NCBI GenBank assembly: GCA_038363925.1
Contig: JAQQWL010000006.1
Location: 1,964,501-2,028,500 of the forward strand
DNA: 64,000 nucleotides
Origin: Apiospora phragmitis
Taxonomy: Eukaryota > Ascomycota > Sordariomycetes > Amphisphaeriales > Apiosporaceae
Reading direction: 5' to 3'
The first letter of the stretch is position 1. Each line of letters begins with the position of its first letter. Under the pieces are notes generated by a model. The model saw only the letters and a list, made by a program, of their open reading frames with translations, ran no database searches and was not told the DNA's origin. The translations under genes were made by a program, and so were the position numbers. Positions 3,338-21,544 of the stretch are shown here, in pieces.

Positions 3338-6300
3338 AATTTTCGAGAATTATTATAACTTTAAAAACACCTTTAAATTACTCTTTTAAAACCCCGATAA
3401 AAAGCGATAGGCTAAAAAAGAACTTAAAACTATTAAATGAAAAATTTAACCGCTTTTTATACAGTTAGTTATAACGTATTATAATTATAATAAATTATAT
3501 TAAAGCTATAATAATTATAATATATTATTAAAATGAAAAGAAAAAATTAAAAATTAATTTAACTAGTTTAAAACATTTTTTATTTATTTAAAGCTTAATA
3601 TTAAAGTCGATACGCGCTTATATAAATACCGCCGTAAAATATAAAACGGCTAATAATAATAAACGAATTAAATTTAAACTAATTTAAAACGCTTATATTA
3701 ATATATAATTAAAAATAATTATTATACCGAGCTTATTAATTTCGATATTAGTAAATATAATAAAAAAGAATATTATTTATTATAATTATTAAAAATAAAG
3801 ATATTACGTTTAAAAATATTAATCTTTAAAAAAAACCTTTAAAAAGTCTTTAAAAAATAATATATTAACGCTACTTAAAATTAAAACAGCCTTATAATAA
3901 CTATTAAAAAAATAAGGCTAGAATTAAATACGGCAGCTTATTTTAAATAGCGTATTATAATAATAAGTATATTACGTATTTAATAAATAAAAAAAGAACC
4001 GGATAATTCCTTAAGGCCTTTAAATTTAAAAGAAGTTATAATTTAAGCGGTGTAATAACGTAAAAAAAATTTACCTCGACGTATAACGATTTTAGTAATA
4101 ATATAAATACGATTAATTAATAAATTTAACTCGTAAATTACTAAGCTTTAAAACTTAAAAATTAATAAGTAATTAATTATCCTCGATATTTCTTACTTAA
4201 ATTCGAAATATCTAGGCTAAGTATTTATTATAATAAGATTTAATTAAAGGGTAAATAAAAGCTACGCCGTAAATAATTTCTTTAACGAATTAATAAATAA
4301 ATAATTATATACTTATACTTTAGTAATATTTTTAAAAAGGTTTAAACACTTATTTTAAATATATAACGAGCGTATTTATTTATATAAAAAACTTATGGTA
4401 ATTATAATAATATTGCTGAAAAACGAGATTGAAAGGAATATATTAAAGATTAATATTTTAAATACACTTAAAAAAACGCGAGCTTATAAATATTTAAAAG
4501 AAAGCGCGTAATATTATTAAAATAAATAATTATATACTTAATAAAAAAACCCTTATTATAATTAAAGATTTATAAAATAGTTATAAACTTTAAAAGTTTA
4601 ATAAACTTTTAAACTATTTAATAAACTCGAATCTTAAATATGAAAGCTAATACTTTATACGAGGAGGGGTATATAAACACTTTTACCGACGCATTAAATA
4701 GTACCTTATTAAGAAAAAAAGGAAAAATAGTAACGATATAACGTTTGATCGTACGAGTTGATTACTTATTTAAAAAAATATCGGTAAAAAAACGAACGCC
4801 GTTAAATATAAAAAATAAGACTAAGAGAACTTAAAAAAGTCCTTATATTAAATAATAAATAATCGAAATATTTATAAATATAAATAAAGATTATATTAAA
4901 ATATTACTTAGTAATAAAATGTAAAGAAACTATATTTTATTTTAAATTATTAATTTACTCAAGCTTAAATAAGAAAAAACTAACGCCTTATACTAATTTA
5001 AAAACGTTATTAAAAGATTTATAACTTATAAAACGAATAAAATATAAAAAACGTAATAAACCTTATAATTAATATCGAAAAACGTTATAAATAAATTACG
5101 CATAATATTATAAACGTTATAAAATACGATATAGTTTTTTAAAATACTTTAATTATAAGTAAATAATTTTAAAATTAATTAAAACATAAATTAATACTAA
5201 TAAAATATATTTAAAAATATACCGGTAATTTAAGCTCTTTTTAAAAAAGAATTAAAACCCGGCTTCTCTTTTTATATATAATAAAATTATAAATTCTTTA
5301 ATAATAAAAAAACCTCCCTTTATATTAATTTATAAATTTAATTAAGAGTATAAATAAGCTTTAAGAGAATAAATTATTAAAAACCTCGAAATAAAAGTTA
5401 TATAACCTTTTTTATTATTAATAAGCTTCTTTATTTTTTTAACTTAAAAAAAAAGTAAAGATAAGAAACTTAAATAGTATATATATATTAATTATGAAAA
5501 GCTTAATAAAATTATATTAAAAACTAATACCTTTTATTTTTTATTAATTATTTTCGAAATAAATTATTATATATTAATTTTTTTTTAATATTTAACCTCT
5601 TTAATATATATAATTTAATTTATATTAAAATAAAAAAATGAAAAGCTATATATTATAATAAATATTAAGTTATACCGTTTAATTTAATTACTTTCTAAGC
5701 TATAATTAATAAATCTATTATAATATACTTTAATAATATATTAATATATTATAAAAATAAAAAGTAAACTAAAAAATATATAAAAGTAATACTTTAAAAA
5801 CTATAGAATATTAATTAATTTAAAAAGCGAGTTTTATAATCGATTAATTATATTCGTGAAATAAGTAAAATCTCTCGAAAAGATTTAAATAAAACCTTCG
5901 AAATTTTTAAGAATTAAAGAGTAACTTATGCTTATAAACATTATAAAGGTTAAATTTTTAAAAACTAGTTAATTATTACCGGATTTTTATCCCTAGATTT
6001 AATAAAATAACGATATTATTAAAGAACTTAATAAAAAGAATAAAGTATTTTAATAATAAAAAAAGCAGGGGCCTTTTATAATATAAAAAAGCGAATCTTT
6101 AATAAATTAATACTTCGCGTAATAAACTATATTAAATTATTTAAAATCGAAACTAACGCCTCGAATTATATAATTAAAAATTAATTAAATTAATAAAATA
6201 ATAATATAAAAAATCGCAATTAATTAAATTCTTTTTTTAAAAAATTCAATAAATTAAAACTTAATTATTAAATTTATTATAAAGAGTTAATAATTTTTAT

Positions 6301-7473: not shown

Positions 7474-7559
7474 ATATAAATCAGTATATAAACCAGTCAG
7501 CTTTTGATTTATAGTCAATTGAATAATACCATCGTTTTCCTTTTCTTTTCCTCTTTCCG
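7474..7559 (+). promoter_or_regulatory. Candidate transposase promoter and 5' leader
   Basis: The 116 bp between the left repeat and the ATG hold two TATA-like words (ATATAAATC at 7474 and TATATAAACC at 7486) and, just before the start codon, a pyrimidine-rich tract (about 7531-7557), a common core-promoter feature of filamentous fungal genes. No intron is needed for the frame. The transcription start is not visible from sequence. Confidence 0.45.
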
Positions 7560-9197
7560 ATGGGCCGTAAACTTGACGAGTCAGCACTGCAACGCGCGAT
7601 TCAGGATGTTATAAATGGCTCGTCAATGAAACAAGCCGCCGAGAAGCACAATGTCCCTGGAACAACTCTGAGGGCTCGGATTCACGGCCGCAAGACTATA
7701 AAACAACGGAATGAGTCCTTCCAGGCCTTGACAACAGCGGAAGAGTCTCAGATCGTGACTTGGTGCCTTGTACAGTATGATCTAGGCTGCTCACCGGCGC
7801 ACGTTATCTTCCGGATGTTCGCCCAACGGATCCTTCAAGCCAACGGGATCAATATAATCCTCGGCAAGCACTGGGTTGAAAGATTTATTGCTCGCCATCC
7901 ATCTATCGGTGCTGCTCTTTCCAAGAGGATGGATTTCCTAAGGCTCAACGCAACTTCCGCAGAGAAAATCATCGAGTTTTTCGAGCGGCTCAACAATCCT
8001 ATTCTAGAATCGATCCCTCCAGAGTTTCGGTTCAACGTCGACGAGATCGGTAACCAGCTCGGCTGTGGAACGAATATGATGGTTATTGGACCTGCTGGAA
8101 TGAAGAGAATACTAGTTGCAGACTCCCCTAACCGAGAATGGGCTTCTGCGGTCGAATGCAACAACGCTTTGGGCCGAGCCTTGCCTCCTCTCATCATATT
8201 CAAGGGTCAATGGGTCCAGCAGCAATGGTTTCCGGAGGAGGAGGACTCGCTAACGGATGCCATGGAGGATTGGGTCTTTGCGGCATCCCCTAAAGGCTGG
8301 ACCAACAAGGAGCTGGCCCTGGTGTGGCTAAATGAGGTCTTCATCCCTCATACAAAGCCTGAAAACGAGGACCAGTGGCGGCTCATCATCCTGGATGGTC
8401 ACGCCAGCCACGCAAGCGAAGACTTCATCATGACGTGCTTAAAGCACAAGATATGGCTTCTCTTCCTTCCGGCACACTCGTCGCACCTATTGCAACCCCT
8501 GGATCTTGGTCCCTTCAGTGTGCTGAAGGACACCTACCACCGGAAGGTGACCCTACACTGTATGGGGCTCAACAACATGAATATGAGCAAGAGGGACTTC
8601 CTCCGGTGCTACGAGCCAGCTAGAAGGTTTGCCTTTCGGCCGCATATAATAACTGGCGGCTGGGCCGCAACTGGTATATTCCCTCGCGATATCAACAAGC
8701 CCCTCAATAGCCGGAACCGGAGGATGGAAGACCAGGCAGAGGCAGGACCATCTGAGCCTCCCCCCGACGTTTCCGATGAACAATTCTCCTCCACAGCGTT
8801 GCCAACACCTACGACCAGCCGCCAGATTAAAGAGTTAGCGGATACGCTTGGTGGTGATGATGCTATTTTCGATGGCGCGACGCGCCGGGTTTTGTTCCGG
8901 AAGCTCCAGAAGAGTCTGGATACTTTGAACGGCCAGATCGGCCAACTGGAGCACGAGAAGTCAGTTTTGGAAGGTAATCTAGAGAAAGAAAGAGGTAAAA
9001 AGAGGAAAAGAGTAATGCCTAACCCCAACCAGAAGTTTGCGCGTATACGAGATGCCATGGCAGTTAAGAGGGAGATGAATGGCGTTGCACCGGAACCCCA
9101 GGCTGTTACTCCTCCATCGTCGGCGCCGGAAGCCGTTGTAATTGAATCTGACTCTGAATCTGAGATTGAGAGTGTCATAGAAGCGTTTCGGGACTGA
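7560..9197 (+). CDS. Pogo/Fot1-type transposase (545 aa), intact
   Basis: DDE transposase that would bind the terminal repeats and cut and rejoin DNA in the nucleus. Residues about 8-46 form a Psq-type helix-turn-helix; about 52-120 a CENP-B/Tc5-type DNA-binding domain ending in WVERFIARHPSIG. The DDE_1 catalytic domain spans about 150-350, with D161 (FNVDEIG), D279 (LIILDGHASH) and D315 (LLQPLDLGPF), 35 residues between the last two, as in the Fot family. Residues about 445-480 look like a coiled coil, GKKRKRV (479-485) is a likely nuclear signal, and the acidic tail EAVVIESDSESE (524-535) resembles a SUMO-interacting motif. Length is normal for the family. The first ATG lies just after a pyrimidine tract and is the natural start. 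Codon use is balanced, unlike all neighbours. No catalytic residue is missing. Confidence 0.96.
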   Translation: MGRKLDESALQRAIQDVINGSSMKQAAEKHNVPGTTLRARIHGRKTIKQRNESFQALTTAEESQIVTWCLVQYDLGCSPAHVIFRMFAQRILQANGINIILGKHWVERFIARHPSIGAALSKRMDFLRLNATSAEKIIEFFERLNNPILESIPPEFRFNVDEIGNQLGCGTNMMVIGPAGMKRILVADSPNREWASAVECNNALGRALPPLIIFKGQWVQQQWFPEEEDSLTDAMEDWVFAASPKGWTNKELALVWLNEVFIPHTKPENEDQWRLIILDGHASHASEDFIMTCLKHKIWLLFLPAHSSHLLQPLDLGPFSVLKDTYHRKVTLHCMGLNNMNMSKRDFLRCYEPARRFAFRPHIITGGWAATGIFPRDINKPLNSRNRRMEDQAEAGPSEPPPDVSDEQFSSTALPTPTTSRQIKELADTLGGDDAIFDGATRRVLFRKLQKSLDTLNGQIGQLEHEKSVLEGNLEKERGKKRKRVMPNPNQKFARIRDAMAVKREMNGVAPEPQAVTPPSSAPEAVVIESDSESEIESVIEAFRD

Positions 9198-12057: not shown

Positions 12058-12336
12058 TGTTACAACCCGACCTAACCATGCGACTAAAAGACCCCATTTA
12101 CCGGCACGGGGATACGATAACCCGGTCCGGCTACGATACTATAGCCAGCAATCGTACCGCTAGCTATATTAATATGTACGTAGCTACACTTTAACAGTGT
12201 ACGATAAAACAAGCACCCCTAGCCCGTGTAGCGATAGAACGAATAAAAGTAGATATAATAATAAGGTACGATAAGTTACGTAACGGACCCTAGAGCAATA
12301 AAAGGCACGACGCCTAAAGCGAGCTAACCAAGGCTG

Positions 12337-12443
12337 GATCACCGTAATCCGAAGGGGATCACTATAAGCCAGCAACGAGATCACTGTAAGCTAATAACGA
12401 GATCATCGTAAGCTAATAACGAGATTACCGTAAGGCTATAAGT
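12337..12443 (+). repeat. Tandem 22-bp units in 5' LTR U3 (five units)
   Basis: Units begin GATCACYGTAAGC and end TAACGA; the first and last are slightly shorter. The array lies just upstream of the TATA-like element at 12476, the position of enhancer repeats in many LTRs. A regulatory role is inference. Confidence 0.85.
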
Positions 12444-12475
12444 GATCTAAGGGATTAGGGAGGAAGGAGATTAGA

Positions 12476-12483
12476 TATATAAA
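12476..12483 (+). promoter_or_regulatory. TATA-like element of G0 5' LTR
   Basis: TATATAAA, about 35 bp after the tandem array, in the expected place for the start of the retroelement transcript. The same word occurs at the matching place of the 3' LTR (about 19526). Confidence 0.5.
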
Positions 12484-12819
12484 CGACGAACGCTCTTTAC
12501 GTATTTTATATAAATATTTTTTATTTTAATAATTAATTTAAGTATTAATCTTAACTTATTAATAAAATAAATAGCTTTAATAAAACTATTATAAATATTT
12601 TTAAATTAACGCCCCTTAATTACTTTTTATTTTTTATAAGCTATTACTTATTATATTAATAAAAACGGACTTTTATTACACGTTTAAATACTTTTTTATA
12701 TTATTAATATAAACTTTAATACATCTTACTAAGTTTTTTTTAAAACTTAAATAACGTTCGTTATATTTTAATTACTTTTATTCTTACGAATTATTACTTA
12801 AACCTTCGAGTAATAATAT

Positions 12820-15110
12820 TATAAGAACTATATCTACGCCTGGCCCTAGTAACACTGTCCGATAAAGAAAGATCCCTATCGTCACCCCTGGCACCTCTTA
12901 GCGAGACCCTGCTATAGAGGTCGATAGCGACGATAGCGACGACGAGCCTACCCGGTAAGCGCTGGCTAAACGAATTAAGGAGTTCGAATAGGAAAGCGCT
13001 AATTACTAATACTATTACGCACGGCTTAAAAAAGAGCATAATAAGCTCCGGGCCAAGGACGCCCTAGAATAAACACCCTATAATATTAATAAGTTACGCG
13101 AAGAAATACGTCTCTTTTATATAGCTATTAATATTATTTAAACCCCTATTATACTTTAAAAAGGGTATAAAGATTAATATTTTAATACTATTTAACGGGA
13201 TAAGCGGGAACCTTCGAAGCTTCTTTATTTAGGTCAAGGCTTATTAATAATTTTACGAAGGGACATTCCAGGACGCCACTTAGCGAGTCGTCCATACTGC
13301 CTCGTTTTTTAAAAGCAAGGCGCTCGCTTAGTTCGAACCCTATTTAGATAAACTCGTAAAAAACGACTAGCAAATTAAGCTATACCGCACAAAAGTATAA
13401 CGAATCTTTAAAAACTATAATAACTTCGAGCAAGCCTTTAAATCATTTTTCTAAGACCCCGATAAAAAACGATAAGCGGAGAGGGAACTCGAAACCCTTA
13501 AACAAAAGGGATTAACCGCCTCTTATATAGCCGAATTCTAATGTACTATAGCTCGATTAAATTATACCGAAGCTATAAAAATTATAATATATTATTAAGG
13601 CTTAAAAAAAAAACGTTAAAAACGAACTTAGCCGGCTAAATACCCTTAATAATTTCTTTTTATATATAGAACTTATTATTAAAATCAATACTCACATATA
13701 TAAATAACGTTATAAAAAATAAGGCGGACTATTACGATAAACTAATCAGATCTAGGCCAATACCGGATAACTACGCTAATATAATAATATACCGCCTAGG
13801 AAAATTATAACGTATAGCCACCATTATAAACCTATAAATCTCGACGTTACTAGGCATAATAACCTAGATAAGAAGTAGCGTATTACCTGCTATAACTATT
13901 AAAAATAAAGATATTACGCTCGAAAATATCGAGCGTTAAAAAAGAACTTCCGACAAGTACCAAACGAACAACACATTAACGCCACCAAAGCAGAGGGCAC
14001 CTTAATAGCAGCTATTAAAAATAGTAGCGCTACCACCGAACACGGCAGCCTATCCTGGACAGCCTGCTACGATAATAGATACGCCTCACACTTGGCGGAT
14101 AAAGAAGGTACTGGATAGTTTCCAAAACCCCCAAGGGTAGAAACCATAACCGAAGCGTTGCGATACTACGGAGGGAGCAACACCTCCCACACAACAACAA
14201 CAGCGACTCTATGGACGATACCACAAGTTAACCAGCGCAATTACCAAACCACGAATAATTAGTTAATATATTAATAAAAGAACTAATAAACGAGATCGTA
14301 AAATATAGAAACCTAAAGACCGATAGATAGTTAGCCATCCCTAGTATTCTTTACCCCGACTTAAAATACCTACGCTAAATACTTATCACGGCTGGATTTA
14401 ATTAAAGAATCTACGGTAACTATGCGGTAAAAAATAATACCCGAATCTCCCCTATATACGAAAAACATTTTATACTCTTATAAATCTTATATATACACGA
14501 TACCTATATAAAACACCTCGCGAAAAAACTTGAACACGAATAATTTCCTCGAAAAATTAATAAATAACCTATTACGTAATTATACCTTAACTATATTATT
14601 AAAAAAATCTAAACGTTAATCCCCGACGAATAACGCGTATACCTATTAATATAAAAAAACCTATAGTAACTATAATAATATTACTTAGGAGAACGAAATT
14701 AAAAAAAGTGCTTTAAAAATTAATACCTCGAATACGCCTAGGAAAAATCGCGAGCTTATAAACGTTTAAAAAAAAGCACTTAACGCCTTTAAAATATATA
14801 AGTTTAAACCCGATAAAAAAAACCCCTTAACTTATTAAAAAACCTATAAAACGCTTATAAACTATCGCGAACTTAACAAACTTTCGAATCGCTTAAAAAA
14901 CCCGAGTCTTAAATATTAAGGATAATACGTCGTATAGGGAAAAGTATAAAAACACCCCCACCAGCATACCAAAAAGCGCCCTATAAAGAACGAAGGAAAT
15001 AATAGCGATAACACGAGGATCGATCGTAAGAAAATATTAACTACCTATAAGAGTAACGTTTAAAAAATAGACGCCGCCTATTATAAAAAAATAATAATAA
15101 GCGGACCAGG
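12820..15110 (+). pseudogene. G0 gag (broken by RIP stops)
   Basis: Capsid polyprotein remnant. The acidic start reads VDSDDSDDEPTR near 12918, followed by KRIKEFE and NYQYYYARLKKEH-like coiled sequence (stops at Gln codons). The retroviral-gag-like domain at about 13400-13600 reads NNFEQAFKSFF then DPDKKR and AERELETLKQKG. A Cys-rich block near 14065 (CYDNRYASHLADKEGTG) is a fungal gypsy gag hallmark from memory. The C-terminal helical part (EKSRAYKRLKKS near 14750) follows. Most stops are TAA or TAG at probable Gln. Confidence 0.8.
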
Positions 15111-15169
15111 ACAGGTCCCTATGCTAAACAACGGATAATCGAGCCATCTATAAGCATATTATACTAATA

Positions 15170-18100
15170 ATAAGTGTAAAAAGAGTCTATATTAAAGCGT
15201 TACTCGATAGCGGAGTATAAAGAAACTATATTTCACTACGAATCGTTAATTACCTTAAACTCGAATAATAATAAAAAAACGCCTTATACCGACTTAAAAC
15301 CGTTAATAAAGGATTTATAACTTACGACAATAAAGAAGTACGAAAAGAAGTCGCGAACTTTTTAATCGATATTAAAAAACGTTACAAACGAATTACATAT
15401 AATATTACGGACGTCGTAAAATACGATATAATTTTAAAAATACCTTAATTACGGGTAAATAATTTTAAAATTAATTAAAAAATAGGCTAATTTTAATAAA
15501 ATATATTAAAAAAAGGTTTAATCGATAAATAGCGGTCTAAAAAACAACCCCTGAATAAACTTAAAATCTTTAAAATATATATTATTATTAAAAAACCTAA
15601 GCCGAACGTTATAATAATTATATTAAAAGAGTACCGGTAATTCGAAGCTCTCTTTAATAAAAAACTAAAAACAGGCTTACCGCTTTATATACGGTAAAAT
15701 TATAAAATACCCTTTAAAAATAAGAAAGAACCCTTATTTATACCTATATATAAACTTAACCAAAAGTATAAACAAGCCCTAAAAAAGTATATTACGGAAA
15801 ACCTCGAGAAAAGAGTTATACAACTATCCACGTCGTCAACAGGCTTCCCTATCCTCTTTATTCCGAAAAAGAGTAAAGACGAGAAACTTAAGTAGCGTAT
15901 ATATATTAATTACTATAAACTTAACGAAATTATTATTAAGAACCGGTACCCCTTACCTCTGATTAGCAACTTATAAAATAAATTATTAAACGTTAAAATC
16001 TTTATAACACTCGATCTCTTTAATATATATAACCTAATCCGAATTAAAAAAAAAGGAATAAAAAACCGCGTTCCGAACTAAATATAAATATTTTAAATAT
16101 TAAGCTATACTATTTAATTTAATTAATATACCAGCTAGCTTTTAATCTATAATTAACTATATCCTACAGGAATACCTCGATAAGTTTATTGTAATATATC
16201 TCGACGATATCCTCATTTACTCCGAGAACAACGAGCAGTACCGAGAATACGTAAAGCTAGTACTCCGGAAGCTACAGGACGTCAACCTACTAATTAACCT
16301 AAAAAGAGCGAATTCTACCGACGATCCGTCACATTCGTAAAATACGTAATATTCCCTAGAAAAATCCGGATAGAACCCTCTAAAATTTCGGCAATTAAAG
16401 AGTAGCCCACGCCTATAAGCGCTATAGAAATTAAATTTTTCTTAAGACTAGCTAATTATTACCGGATATTTATCCCCGGATTCGATAAGTTAGCGATACC
16501 TCTAACGAACTTAACGAAAAAGGACGAGCTATTCCGATAAATAAAGAAAGAAGACCAAGCCTTTTACGATATTAAAAAGCGAATCCTTAACGAATTAATA
16601 CTTCGTATAGCGGACCTTTCGAGGCCTTTTAAAGTCGAAACTAACGTATTAGATTATGCGATCGGAGGATAACTAAGCTAGCGGGACGATAACGAAAAGT
16701 CGCACCTTATCGTATTCTTTTTAAAAAAGCTGAATAAATTAGAACTTAATTATTAAATATATAATAAAGAATTAATAACTATTATTAAAGCTTATAAAAA
16801 ATAAAGATATTATTTTAACGAAATAATAAAATTAATTAAGATTTATATTAATTATAAAAACCTTATAACGTTTATTATTATTAAAAAATTAAATAAATAA
16901 TAAGTATAATAGTTTAAATTCTTTTCGAGATTTAATTTTATTATTATTTACTGGAAGGGTAGCGAGAACGGCCGCGCCGACGTATTAAGCCGACGGCTAA
17001 ATTATTAAAAAAAAGTTTCACCCGAAACATAAATTATCTTAATATATAACCGGGACAGCAACCTCGTATTATTATAATAACTAAACGCGACGAGCTAGGT
17101 TTAATATAATAATAATTAAGTTACTAAGTTTCGATAATTTAACCGAACCCTAGACCTTATTAGTTACGCTAGGGACCACCTCGAAAACCACGACGGCCTA
17201 ATTTTTTACCGAAATAAAATCTATATCCTTAAACGATATCGTAAAGACTTTATTAAGGAATTCTACGAGTACTTTATACACGGATATTAAAGAATATTTA
17301 AAACTTAGAAACGAATTATTAAATAATTTAATTATAAGAACTTCAAGCTAGTTATAGCTAAGGTTATTAATAAATGCGACTTATATAATAAGGCTAAGTC
17401 CGTAAGATATCGACCGTACAGAGAACTATAGCTAATTCTACCGCCAGACAAGGCGTAAAAAACGATCGCGCTCGACTTTATAATTAAATTACCCCTATTG
17501 AAAAAACCCTTAACTAAGGCTAACTACGATAATATCCTAGTAATTATAAATAAACTTACGAAATATACTTACTTCTTATTATATAAAAAGTTTAGCAATA
17601 CTAGCGATCTAGTTTATACCTTTTTCCGTATTATCGTTAATTAGTACGGATTATTAGAAACGATCATTTTTAATTAAAATAAGCTATTTATAATAAAATT
17701 CTAAAAGTTATTTATAATATAACTCGGTATTAAATATAAGTTATTTATAATTTATTACTTTTAAATAAACGGATAAACGAAAAGAATATACTAAATATTA
17801 AAATAATACTTACATTATTATATTAATTATAAATAAAATAATTAGGTATAATTATTACCTATAACTTAATTCGTTTATAATAGCGTAAATAACGAAACTA
17901 TACGCATATTACTATTCCGAATAAATTACGGGTATAATTTAAAAATTATTAAAAAACCCCTAGAAGGAAAGTTAATATTAATCGCGACTATATAAATCGT
18001 AAAATTAAAAGAACTTTAAATTATATTATAATAAAACCTTACTTTTCTTTAATAACGAATAAAGAGATACGCTAATTAAATAAGGTTAAAGGGATTAATT

Positions 18101-18547
18101 TTTAAAAAAGAAGAAAAAGTTTATTTTTTATAACGAAATATTAAAATAAAACGACTAAGTAATAAATTAGACTTTAAAAAAATCGAACTATTTAAAATTA
18201 TAAAAGTCGTTTTAAAAATTAATTACTAATTATCGCTACTTTAAATAATACGGATACACTTTATATTTTATATTTTATTACTCGAGCTAATAACCGAGAA
18301 AACCTTAATTAATATATAACTAAAAATCGAAATAGATTAACACGAGTACGAAATCGATAAAATTATTAATAAAAAAAAAGAACAAGGCTTTTAATACCTC
18401 GTCTAATAAAAAGGCTACCTATTAAAAAATAATACTTAAAAACCTAAAAAACACTTAACGAACGCCGCGAAAAAACTCTAAAAGTTTAAAAAAGAGCTCC
18501 CCTTATAAAAACTAACAAGCCAGGCTCTAAAAAGCCCGCTAAACTAA
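15170..18547 (+). pseudogene. G0 pol: protease, RT, RNase H, integrase, chromodomain (broken)
   Basis: Pol remnant in the gypsy order. Protease: LLDSG near 15197, then VVKYDIIL and LRVNN. Reverse transcriptase: RVIQLSTSSTGFPILFIPKK near 15810, NRYPLPLIS near 15940, and an intact YLDD at 16197-16208. RNase H: FKVETNVLDYAIGG near 16630. Integrase: FYRNKIYILKRYRKDFIKEF at 17200-17260, then KTIALDFIIKLP near 17460-17490 with the first core Asp. A chromodomain at 18344-18480 reads HEYEIDKIINKKKEQGF, YLV, KGYL; such domains steer chromovirus integration to heterochromatin marks. The frame runs on to about 18547 and overlaps the antisense ORF. Stops are mostly Gln or Trp codons changed by RIP. Confidence 0.9.
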
Positions 18548-19046
18548 AAAACAACCAATTAACGTCCTTAGAAACACTTAAAGAACGCAGGTTACCTAAA
18601 ACGAAATTCTCTTAGTCGATAATCGAGGAAGAAACTCCATCCTCCTTATCCAGCTCTTATATTCCCCGACGGAACGCTTCCGAACGTTTTTCTACCACAA
18701 CCTTCTTTATATAACAAAAACAGGCTAAACGACCCAGGGCGGTAGATAGCTGCGTCTATAGCAAAAATAAGGCCTCCTCTACGTCCGATTCCTCCGCCTC
18801 CAGCTTTTTCTACTGAGCGGCCAGCTTCGTTAAGGCCGACGTAATAAAGGTGCTATCATAAGAACGACCAACCCGAATATATTCCGAGCAACGAGACGAC
18901 CTCTCGTTTATACGACAAGCTAGGTTTTAACAAAAATAACGAGTACAGGGCATACTAATTAAATTACCCGTGGATTTTATGTTAATAATAAGAACTAAAC
19001 GCGTAATAGTTTTTTTAAACCGAGATTTTTTAACGCGACTATTTAT
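18486..19046 (-). pseudogene. aORF-0: antisense ORF with Zn(II)2Cys6-like cluster, gypsy G0
   Basis: Unrecognised gene, best preserved copy (187 codons, minus strand). It starts at an ATA that was probably ATG (19044-19046). At 18858-18947 it reads C-T-R-Y-x6-C-x8-C-S-E-Y-x6-Y-D, exactly C-x2-C-x6-C-x8-C-x2-C-x6-C once three TAT codons are read as RIP-changed TGT; this fits the fungal GAL4-type Zn2Cys6 consensus. Next comes a charged coiled-coil-like stretch (KKLEAEESDVEEALF), then EKRSEAFRRGI, and a tail with VSKDVNW and LAGFLEPG. All in-frame stops before the last are TAA/TAG at likely Gln. It converges on pol and overlaps its 3' end by about 60 bp. A nuclear DNA-binding role is inference. 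A captured host gene is an alternative. Confidence 0.75.
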
Positions 19047-19132
19047 AATAAATAAATATTATAATAAAAAATAATAAGGAAAAAAAACCTACTATAACCC
19101 GAACATTATAAATAATTAAAGATAAAATAATT

Positions 19133-19148
19133 AAAAAAAGGAGGATAG
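19133..19148 (+). promoter_or_regulatory. Polypurine tract of G0
   Basis: AAAAAAAGGAGGATAG immediately before the 3' LTR, the usual primer site for plus-strand DNA synthesis. The inverse of a similar tract (AAAAAAGAGAGGATA) lies beside the minus-strand LTR ending at 53789. Confidence 0.8.
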
Positions 19149-19815
19149 TATTATAACTCGACTTAACTATATAACTAAAAAACCCCACTTACCGGCACAA
19201 GGATACGATAACCCGGTCCGGCTACGATACTATAACTAGCAATCGCACCGCCAGCTATATTAATATGTACGCAGCTATACTTTAATAACGTGCGACAAAG
19301 ACAAGCACCCCTAGCCCGCGTAGCGATAGAATAAATAAAGGTAGACATAATAATAAGGTATAATGAGTTACGTAACGGACCCTAGAGCAATAAAAGGCAC
19401 GACGCCCAAAGCGAGCTAACTAAGGCTGGATCACCGTGAGCTAGCAACGAGATCACCGTGAGCTAATAACGAGATCACCGTGAGCCCATAAGTGATCTAA
19501 AGGATTAAAGAGGAAGGAAATTAGATATATAAACGACGAACGCTCTTTATATATTTTATATAAATACTCTCTATTTTAATAATTAATTTAAATATTAATC
19601 TTAACCTATTAATAAAATAAATAGCTTTAACGAAACTATTATAAATACCTTTAAATTAACGCCCCTTAATTACTTTTTATTTCTTACGAGCTATTACTTA
19701 TTATATTAATAAAAGCGGACTTTTATCGCACGTTTAAATACTCTCTCGTATTATTAATATAAACCCTAATACGTCTTACTAGGTTTCTTTTAAAATCTAG
19801 ATAGCGTTCGTTACA
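19149..19815 (+). repeat. G0 3' LTR (type A, 667 bp)
   Basis: Direct repeat of the 5' LTR; most differences are transitions of RIP type in either copy. Has three 22-bp units (19429-19493) where the 5' LTR has five. Confidence 0.92.
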
Positions 19816-20474: not shown

Positions 20475-21544
20475 ATTATAAAGGCTATATTTATTAATTA
20501 CTTTAATTATAACTAGCTCAAGGCTTTTATTTATAAATTATTTAATAATCTATTTTAAAGTTTTAAACACGCTTTAATATTTATATATAAAGTGTTCGTA
20601 GAATTCCTTAATAAATTTATTTTTATATTATTCGAAATTATTAATTTTATTATAATAATAAATAAGACTATTCTTTTTATATAAGTAGTTTTATATTTAA
20701 TTAATAAAGTTAAAGCCGTTATTTATTTTTTAAAACTTTTAAATTTATTCCTTATAAAATTATATTTAATACGTAACTTAAATGTGTTATAATAATATTA
20801 AGTTTTAATTTCATTTTTATATTAAAATAGTTTTAATTTAAATAAAACTTCTTTTAATAATTAATTTATTAGCTTAATATATTAATGCGACTATTTTCGT
20901 TATACTTATAATAAATAATAATAAGGTTAAATTTTCAAAAGAATTTAAACTATTATATTTATTATTTATTTAGCTATTTAATAAAAATAAGAATTATAAA
21001 GCTTTTATAATTAATATAACCTTTATTAGTTTTATTATATTATTAAAAATAATATCTTTATTTTTTATAAGCGTTTATAATAATTATTAATTCTTTATTA
21101 TAAACCTAATAATTAAGCTTAGATTTATTTAACTTTTTATTATTATTTTATTAATTTAGCTACCTTTCGATTATATAGTTTAATACGTTAGTTTCGATTT
21201 TAAAAGATTTTATAAGGTTTATTATATAAAGATTTAATTTATAAAAGATTCGCTCTTTTATATTATAAAAGTCTTTAACTTTCTTTTTATTAAAAGTATC
21301 GCTACTTTATTAAATCTAAGAACGAAAATCCGGTAATAATTAATTAATTTTAAAAAGGATTTAACCTTTATAGCGCTTATAAGCGTAAGCTATTCTTTAA
21401 TTATTAAAATTATCGAAGGTTTTATCCGGATTTTTTCGAGGGATACTACGTATTTTATAAATATAATTAATCGTTAATAAAACTCACTTTTTAAATTAAT
21501 TAATTAATTAACGTTTTATAATTTTTAATATACTTATTTTAATA
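20475..21544 (-). mobile_element. G2: decayed gypsy, integrase N-terminus to RT
   Basis: Minus-strand gypsy, heavily RIP-mutated. Collinear with 27180-28280 and 61550-62690: integrase zinc region (about 20500-20640), RNase H (about 20800-21200) and reverse transcriptase up to just before the YLDD block, where an F1 element interrupts it. Confidence 0.7.

Follow-up and report, generated by a model that had tools for sequence, protein, structure and literature searches.

HBZ of human T-cell leukaemia virus type 1 (HTLV-1) is a nuclear bZIP protein encoded on the antisense strand. The HTLV antisense promoter is placed in the 3' long terminal repeat (LTR) by PMC7264820. In plants, Retand retrotransposons carry antisense TRP28 open reading frames (ORFs; PF04195) with predicted DNA binding (PMC11963269), whereas in fungi Boty-like Ty3/gypsy elements carry the antisense gene brtn (Zhao et al. 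2011, pmid 21802103, known through its citation by PMC7264820, PMC8365987 and PMC4227169). Here we describe an antisense gene in a 64,000-nucleotide stretch of DNA from the fungus Apiospora phragmitis (contig JAQQWL010000006.1, positions 1,964,501 to 2,028,500; the window), where a Ty3/gypsy element altered by repeat-induced point mutation (RIP) holds, on the opposite strand between pol and its 3' LTR, the remnant of a gene for a small protein with a six-cysteine cluster and a predicted coiled coil. We are virtually certain that this frame is a real protein-coding gene and consider it highly probable that its product is a zinc-binding, nucleic-acid-binding protein. The architecture and its conservation are shown; for its function, we propose with a probability of about 0.6 that the gene encodes a minimal transcription regulator belonging to the element itself.

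The antisense gene, its relatives and its lineage

The minus-strand frame picked out by a first-pass annotation of the window, made from the letters alone, reads as claimed: 187 codons with five internal stops (two TAG, three TAA) and a final TAA, its first codon being ATA. With stops masked as X, it matches four open proteins of 148–202 residues at 55–62% identity (E 1.4e-49 to 2.3e-34), one of which, P0003, begins within the zinc cluster, and hhalign aligns it to the 36-member alignment A3 over 176 columns with 99.9% probability. Members of A3 are 24–78% identical to the homologue P0001. Profile searches, each scoring about 7990 candidates, retrieved first 73 proteins (E<=1) and, when widened, 151 (E<=0.01); among the matches listed (120 of the 151 in the wider search), sources include Trichoderma, Colletotrichum, Fusarium, Parathielavia, Canariomyces, Triangularia, Microdochium, Exophiala, Knufia and Capronia, and several homologues are labelled 'Zn(2)-C6 fungal-type' proteins in UniRef. 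The annotation had proposed looking for homologues among fungal proteins, and open relatives were indeed found in many fungi (167 proteins). A search of viral contigs with alignment A1 found no relative.

Full-length open relatives are mostly about 180–220 residues long and combine a basic N-terminus, six Cys, a predicted long helix of heptad repeats and an acidic tail (120 of 124), and an acidic-aromatic motif is frequent among them. The coiled coil suspected in the window copy is likewise supported, with a long helix predicted by a model over P0001 residues 68–138 and heptad repeats across the family. Over about this same region we noted sub-threshold matches to the kinetochore families FTA4 (7 of 36 members) and CENP-Q (2 of 36), which are probably coiled-coil noise. 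Four relatives (P0019, P0020, P0036 and P0061) hold extra residues at one shared site just past the zinc cluster. These may represent an intron that was left unspliced in the antisense gene; such an antisense intron could survive retrotransposition via the sense RNA.

The stops bear the imprint of RIP at the Gln-like positions where they had been said to lie. P0001 has Gln at all five internal stops, and six other homologues have Gln in three to six of six at four of the sites and in two of six at the fifth. Across 40 aligned genomic copies we counted 293 stops (217 TAA, 75 TAG and 1 TGA), of which 262 fall where P0001 has Gln, a residue making up only 9 of its 160, with 30 at Arg and 1 at Lys; in a codon-position comparison, transversions were scarce among copies. 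Over 63 loci the gene frame holds 445 stops, against 703–1054 in the five other frames, and has the fewest or joint-fewest in 58 of the 63; these loci were picked by likeness to P0001, which somewhat favours the gene frame, while the Gln pattern is independent of that choice. A sense-strand gene in the same stretch was ruled out, with 703–1050 stops in the three sense frames. An open frame is shown to have existed before RIP, and the window copy of the gene is dead.

To place the gene within its lineage, P0001 was searched by tblastn against the host genome (52.67 Mb, 19 contigs), where 150 matches were scored among 181 candidates. From these, 66 locus rows were chosen, representing 65 distinct places including the window copy, and 65 stretches covering 64 distinct places were fetched: 5 that were least broken or of special interest (one fetched twice) and 60 that were mostly high-scoring, with some lower. 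The antisense gene is found in 64 of the 66 rows (not in L068 or L077). Beyond its 3' end, an opposite-strand chromodomain is present in 63 of 64 (missing in L020 and 714 bases off in L083), and an opposite-strand LTR match accompanies it in 63 of 64 (missing in L027 and on the wrong side in L075). In most copies, then, the gene occupies the opposite strand of the stretch that separates pol from the 3' LTR, the arrangement that PMC7264820 terms aORF-3R. Subfamilies about 30% identical to P0001 keep this gene order, indicating that the antisense gene is old in the lineage. Its assignment to the element is upheld by its position: at almost every place examined, the gene and the chromodomain face each other with their 3' ends and the 3' LTR follows. 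The antisense accessory gene is a standing part of this chromodomain Ty3/gypsy lineage. The annotation was right to call it antisense and to place it between chromodomain and 3' LTR; its heading, 'antisense to pol', can be made more exact, since the gene lies beyond the chromodomain, convergent with pol and meeting its end, and is not embedded in it.

Two copies stand apart in their RIP damage. In L019 (G000:C3:1102000-1111900), at about 4480-5500, the antisense gene is open over 208 codons and lacks the RIP signature (GC about 0.5, substrate ratio 0.94–1.04), and the adjoining pol is RIP-mutated. Its sister copy L084, 142 transitions and 4 transversions apart, is heavily RIPed. The open gene could reflect uneven RIP by homology or retention by selection. 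In L020 (G000:C3:796000-805900), at about 4317-4825, a second GC-rich, RIP-poor gene copy spans two frames between RIP-mutated flanks; a chromodomain match adjoining it was looked for and none was found.

An atypical six-cysteine cluster

The six cluster positions of the window copy read Cys, Tyr, Cys, Cys, Tyr, Tyr, with each Cys TGT or TGC and each Tyr TAT, exactly as first described. In the wider family, the pattern C-x2-C-x6-C-x8/9-C-x2-C-x6-C occurs in 124 of the 167 proteins (shuffle mean 0.0), the remaining 43 including truncated proteins and rows with Tyr; the spacings among the 124 are (9,6) in 84, (8,6) in 39 and (9,7) in 1. All six columns are covered in 144 rows, where Cys fills 845 of 864 cells and the others hold 17 Tyr, 1 Gly and 1 Arg; the excess of Tyr is the outcome of RIP acting on TGT and TGC. 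Six Cys are present in 129 of these rows (in 44 of 51 rows for the first 73 proteins alone). In 40 host copies, the 240 corresponding cells hold only Cys, Tyr and a single Asn, with Cys kept in 1 to 11 copies per column. The annotation had named a consensus without Cys at the six positions as grounds for dropping the gene, and no such consensus emerged; the exception is the open, distant copy L019, with Ser at the third column (by eye).

The family pattern fits the GAL4-type spacing C-x2-C-x6-C-x5-12-C-x2-C-x6-8-C, and 15 of the 36 A3 members match Zn_clus (PF00172) at E<=1 (best E 0.0024). By sequence, the only zinc cluster that the whole profile reaches in PDB is a weak LEU3 match (E 6), and P0001 alone matched no zinc cluster there. 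The GAL4-type assignment made earlier thus rests on the Cys spacing and a possible, weak fold resemblance, since none of 23 proteins scored individually reaches the Zn_clus cut-off of 21 bits (best 17.9 bits, P0013). The zinc cluster is atypical.

One lead, not a result, is that the cluster is a circularly permuted GAL4-type domain, with a half-2-like segment first and a half-1-like segment (basic loop, trailing Asp) second, beside the coiled coil; we regard this as doubtful. In its favour, the halves align crosswise with those of LEU3, the top match in PDB by sequence (E 0.021). Lys or Arg residues mostly number two to three in loop B and zero to one in loop A, and Asp follows C6 in 123 of 123 proteins and in 0 of 19 host domains, where Asp instead follows C3 in 15 of 19. 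With the Cys columns left out of the scoring, 121 of 123 proteins have a first half closer to the host canonical half 2, 103 of 123 have a second half closer to half 1, and 122 of 123 score higher in the swapped order; these counts are not independent because the 123 proteins are related. This score was trained on 20 host domains (19 second halves) and placed left-out halves correctly in 19 of 20 and 19 of 19 cases. Against permutation, the Cys-free scores are negative in absolute terms (about -5 bits), a rotated profile hidden Markov model does no better (10.3 vs 10.9 bits; better in 41 of 123), and Pro precedes C1 in only 39 of 123. Several Pfam matches (P0013, P0010, P0061 and P0017) keep the canonical order and two (P0001 and P0004) run crosswise, and half-domain profiles alone found no zinc cluster among the PDB matches listed.

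Proposed role and rival explanations

We envision that the gene would be transcribed from an antisense promoter of its own in the leader or 3' LTR, and that its protein would bind two zinc ions, dimerise through the coiled coil and enter the nucleus, where it may bind DNA as a small regulator, its most likely target being the LTR of the element itself. The likely site of the putative antisense leader is the stretch that separates the 5' end of the gene from the 3' LTR. By analogy, such a role would resemble that of the antisense-encoded nuclear proteins of some retroviruses. Transcriptional regulation as the main role has, in our estimate, slightly better than even odds. CGG-N-CCG occurs in 7 of 63 LTRs, and CGG/CCG triplets number 14.7 per LTR against 4.2 in base shuffles, an excess that is not decisive as evidence for target sites because RIP mostly spares CpG.

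Several observations weigh against a gene for a regulator of the fungal type. By stop count alone the frame is only mildly unusual, as 177 of 12690 segments of 187 codons in the window hold six stops or fewer (162 of them at 7–9 kb); the strength of the gene call comes from the homologues. Besides the missed Pfam cut-off, the cluster departs from canonical Zn(II)2Cys6 domains, 19 host domains among them, whose first C2-C3 loop is basic and whose C3-C4 loop contains Pro: the C2-C3 loop has no Lys or Arg in 56 of 124 proteins and a single one in 34 of 124, the basic residues lying in the second loop instead, and Pro stands in the C3-C4 loop in 1 of 124. The near-constant company of a chromodomain pol (63 of 64 rows) and the resemblance to FTA4 and CENP-Q would also suit a protein that tethers the element to chromatin or to integration sites together with the chromodomain integrase, instead of regulating transcription. 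We think this unlikely, as the kinetochore matches are under cut-off and mostly in the coiled coil, and the acidic tail fits an activator better. Even less likely is that the antisense RNA matters and the protein does not, the transcript pairing with genomic RNA to feed or buffer silencing; this has been proposed for plant antisense ORFs (PMC7264820), and Botrytis gypsy elements give small RNAs (PMC8365987), but it leaves the near-invariant Cys columns and the conserved charge and heptad pattern unexplained. RNA and protein roles can be compatible.

That the frame opened by chance, or is a recently captured fragment of a host transcription factor, is hardly credible. Chance is excluded because open homologues exist, and is ruled out too by the Cys pattern and the stops at Gln. 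Capture could draw on a host genome with at least 135 Zn_clus matches above cut-off (0 in 14 control genomes), and P0024 has a Fungal_trans_2 match, under cut-off at 13.7 of 21 bits; yet no Zn_clus match coincides with the tblastn places on contigs C3, C7 and C10, the ones compared (by eye), the family has diverged widely, and its distant subfamilies keep the gene's place. A closer call, to which we give a little less than an even chance, is that the gene belongs to the same family as brtn, our lineage being another carrier. Boty of Botrytis and Sclerotinia likewise has its antisense gene after pol and before the 3' LTR (PMC7264820), Boty-like elements of Botrytis combine gag, RT (reverse transcriptase), IN (integrase) and CHROMO (chromodomain) domains with brtn (PMC4227169), and a Monilinia transcript is listed as chromodomain-containing and similar to BRTN (PMC5987419). 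On the other side, no Botrytis, Sclerotinia or Monilinia protein appears among the homologue matches listed, and the available parts of the citing articles make no mention of zinc or Cys in BRTN.

If the element-encoded protein does regulate transcription, then fungal retrotransposons would possess a regulator of their own, of the kind with which fungi control host genes. This would offer a handle on the timing of element activity, and small zinc-cluster genes of host genomes might have come from such elements. The 'Zn(2)-C6 fungal-type' names that automated annotation gives to several relatives also suggest that, among the transcription factors predicted for fungi, some may belong to mobile elements.

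The carrier element and known antisense systems

Reverse transcriptase, integrase and chromodomain matches follow one another in that order between the LTRs, as in Ty3/gypsy chromoviruses (Table 1). The pol pieces, with X at stops, also gave a Tf2-type SH3 match under the Pfam cut-off, and a Pfam search of the first piece (15002-15901, X at stops) found no domain match. The LTR pair is identical at 589 of 662 aligned bases and differs by 72 transitions and 1 transversion, so RIP-like change explains nearly all of its divergence; the flanks CTGGT and CCGGT are a candidate target duplication (by eye).

Table 1. Coordinates of the element and the antisense gene in the window
Feature	Position	Strand	Remarks
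5' LTR of the gypsy element	12058..12765	+	aligned core 12060-12763; outer ends set by eye
pol piece with reverse transcriptase domain, many stops	15900..16799	+	RVT_1 E 5.8e-9, 36.4 bits, above Pfam cut-off (X at stops)
pol piece with integrase zinc-binding domain	17000..17749	+	Integrase_H2C2 E 4.2e-4, 20.8 bits, under Pfam cut-off 25.5
Chromodomain near pol end	18347..18493	+	Chromo E 4.1e-4, 20.6 bits, under Pfam cut-off 25.1; residues 200-248 of piece 17750-18499
Antisense gene remnant (zinc-cluster coiled-coil protein), 187 codons, five internal stops	18486..19046	-	first codon aligns with homologue start Met
Long helix (coiled coil) after zinc cluster	18642..18854	-	predicted; span inferred via gapless alignment to P0001 model helix 68-138
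Zinc-cluster region, six Cys columns, three reading Tyr in the window copy	18858..18947	-	
Gap between antisense gene 5' end and 3' LTR	19047..19148	.	ends in purine-rich tract
3' LTR	19149..19815	+	aligned core 19151-19813

Both LTRs hold a 22-base tandem repeat (unit about GATCACCGTGAGCTAATAACGA; window 12357-12434 and 19429-19485), and 29 of 63 LTRs have one or more copies of its core. Elsewhere in the window, a GC-rich open frame of 556 codons (7527-9197) with DDE_1 (E 3.8e-33), HTH_psq and Tc5-type HTH matches is a pogo/Tc1-type transposase, apparently spared by RIP. Inverted-repeat arms at 20475-21492 match the pol of the gypsy element with 71–77% complementarity, pointing to a second gypsy fragment downstream in reverse orientation.

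In protein class, the family is like the fungal Zn(II)2Cys6 factors (GAL4, LEU3, HAP1, LAC9 and Pho7; PF00172) in its Cys spacing, the helix after the cluster and a possible, weak fold match. It is unlike them in falling under the Pfam cut-off, in lacking the C3-C4 Pro in 123 of 124 proteins, in its small size, and in carrying the basic loop and trailing Asp in the second half, where canonical domains have them in the first.

In genomic setting, the nearest likeness is to brtn of Boty, also antisense between pol and the 3' LTR of a fungal gypsy element, a likeness of position and orientation. The first-pass annotation had known of no described fungal antisense gene with a zinc cluster; as far as the sources go, brtn, published in 2011, already supplies a fungal antisense gene, and the novelty holds at most for the zinc cluster. 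Among open-access titles and abstract openings, we found none that reports a zinc cluster for an antisense gene of a retrotransposon, subscription literature lying mostly outside this search, and the words 'zinc' and 'antisense' are absent from the available main text of a survey of fungal LTR elements (PMC3248453). The plant antisense ORFs (Retand TRP28, Grande gene23 and RIRE2; PMC11963269, PMC7264820) share position, orientation and a proposed regulatory role, and some are predicted DNA-binding or nuclear proteins, as proposed for the fungal gene. They differ in their domains (TRP28, SMC and others), none being called a zinc cluster in the available parts of those two articles, and Retand belongs to a non-chromovirus plant lineage, unlike the chromodomain element here. 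HTLV-1 HBZ differs in being the bZIP protein, not a zinc-cluster protein, of a retrovirus, and we claim no homology with it; as a functional model only, it offers the parallel of a small coiled-coil regulator encoded on the antisense strand near the 3' LTR.
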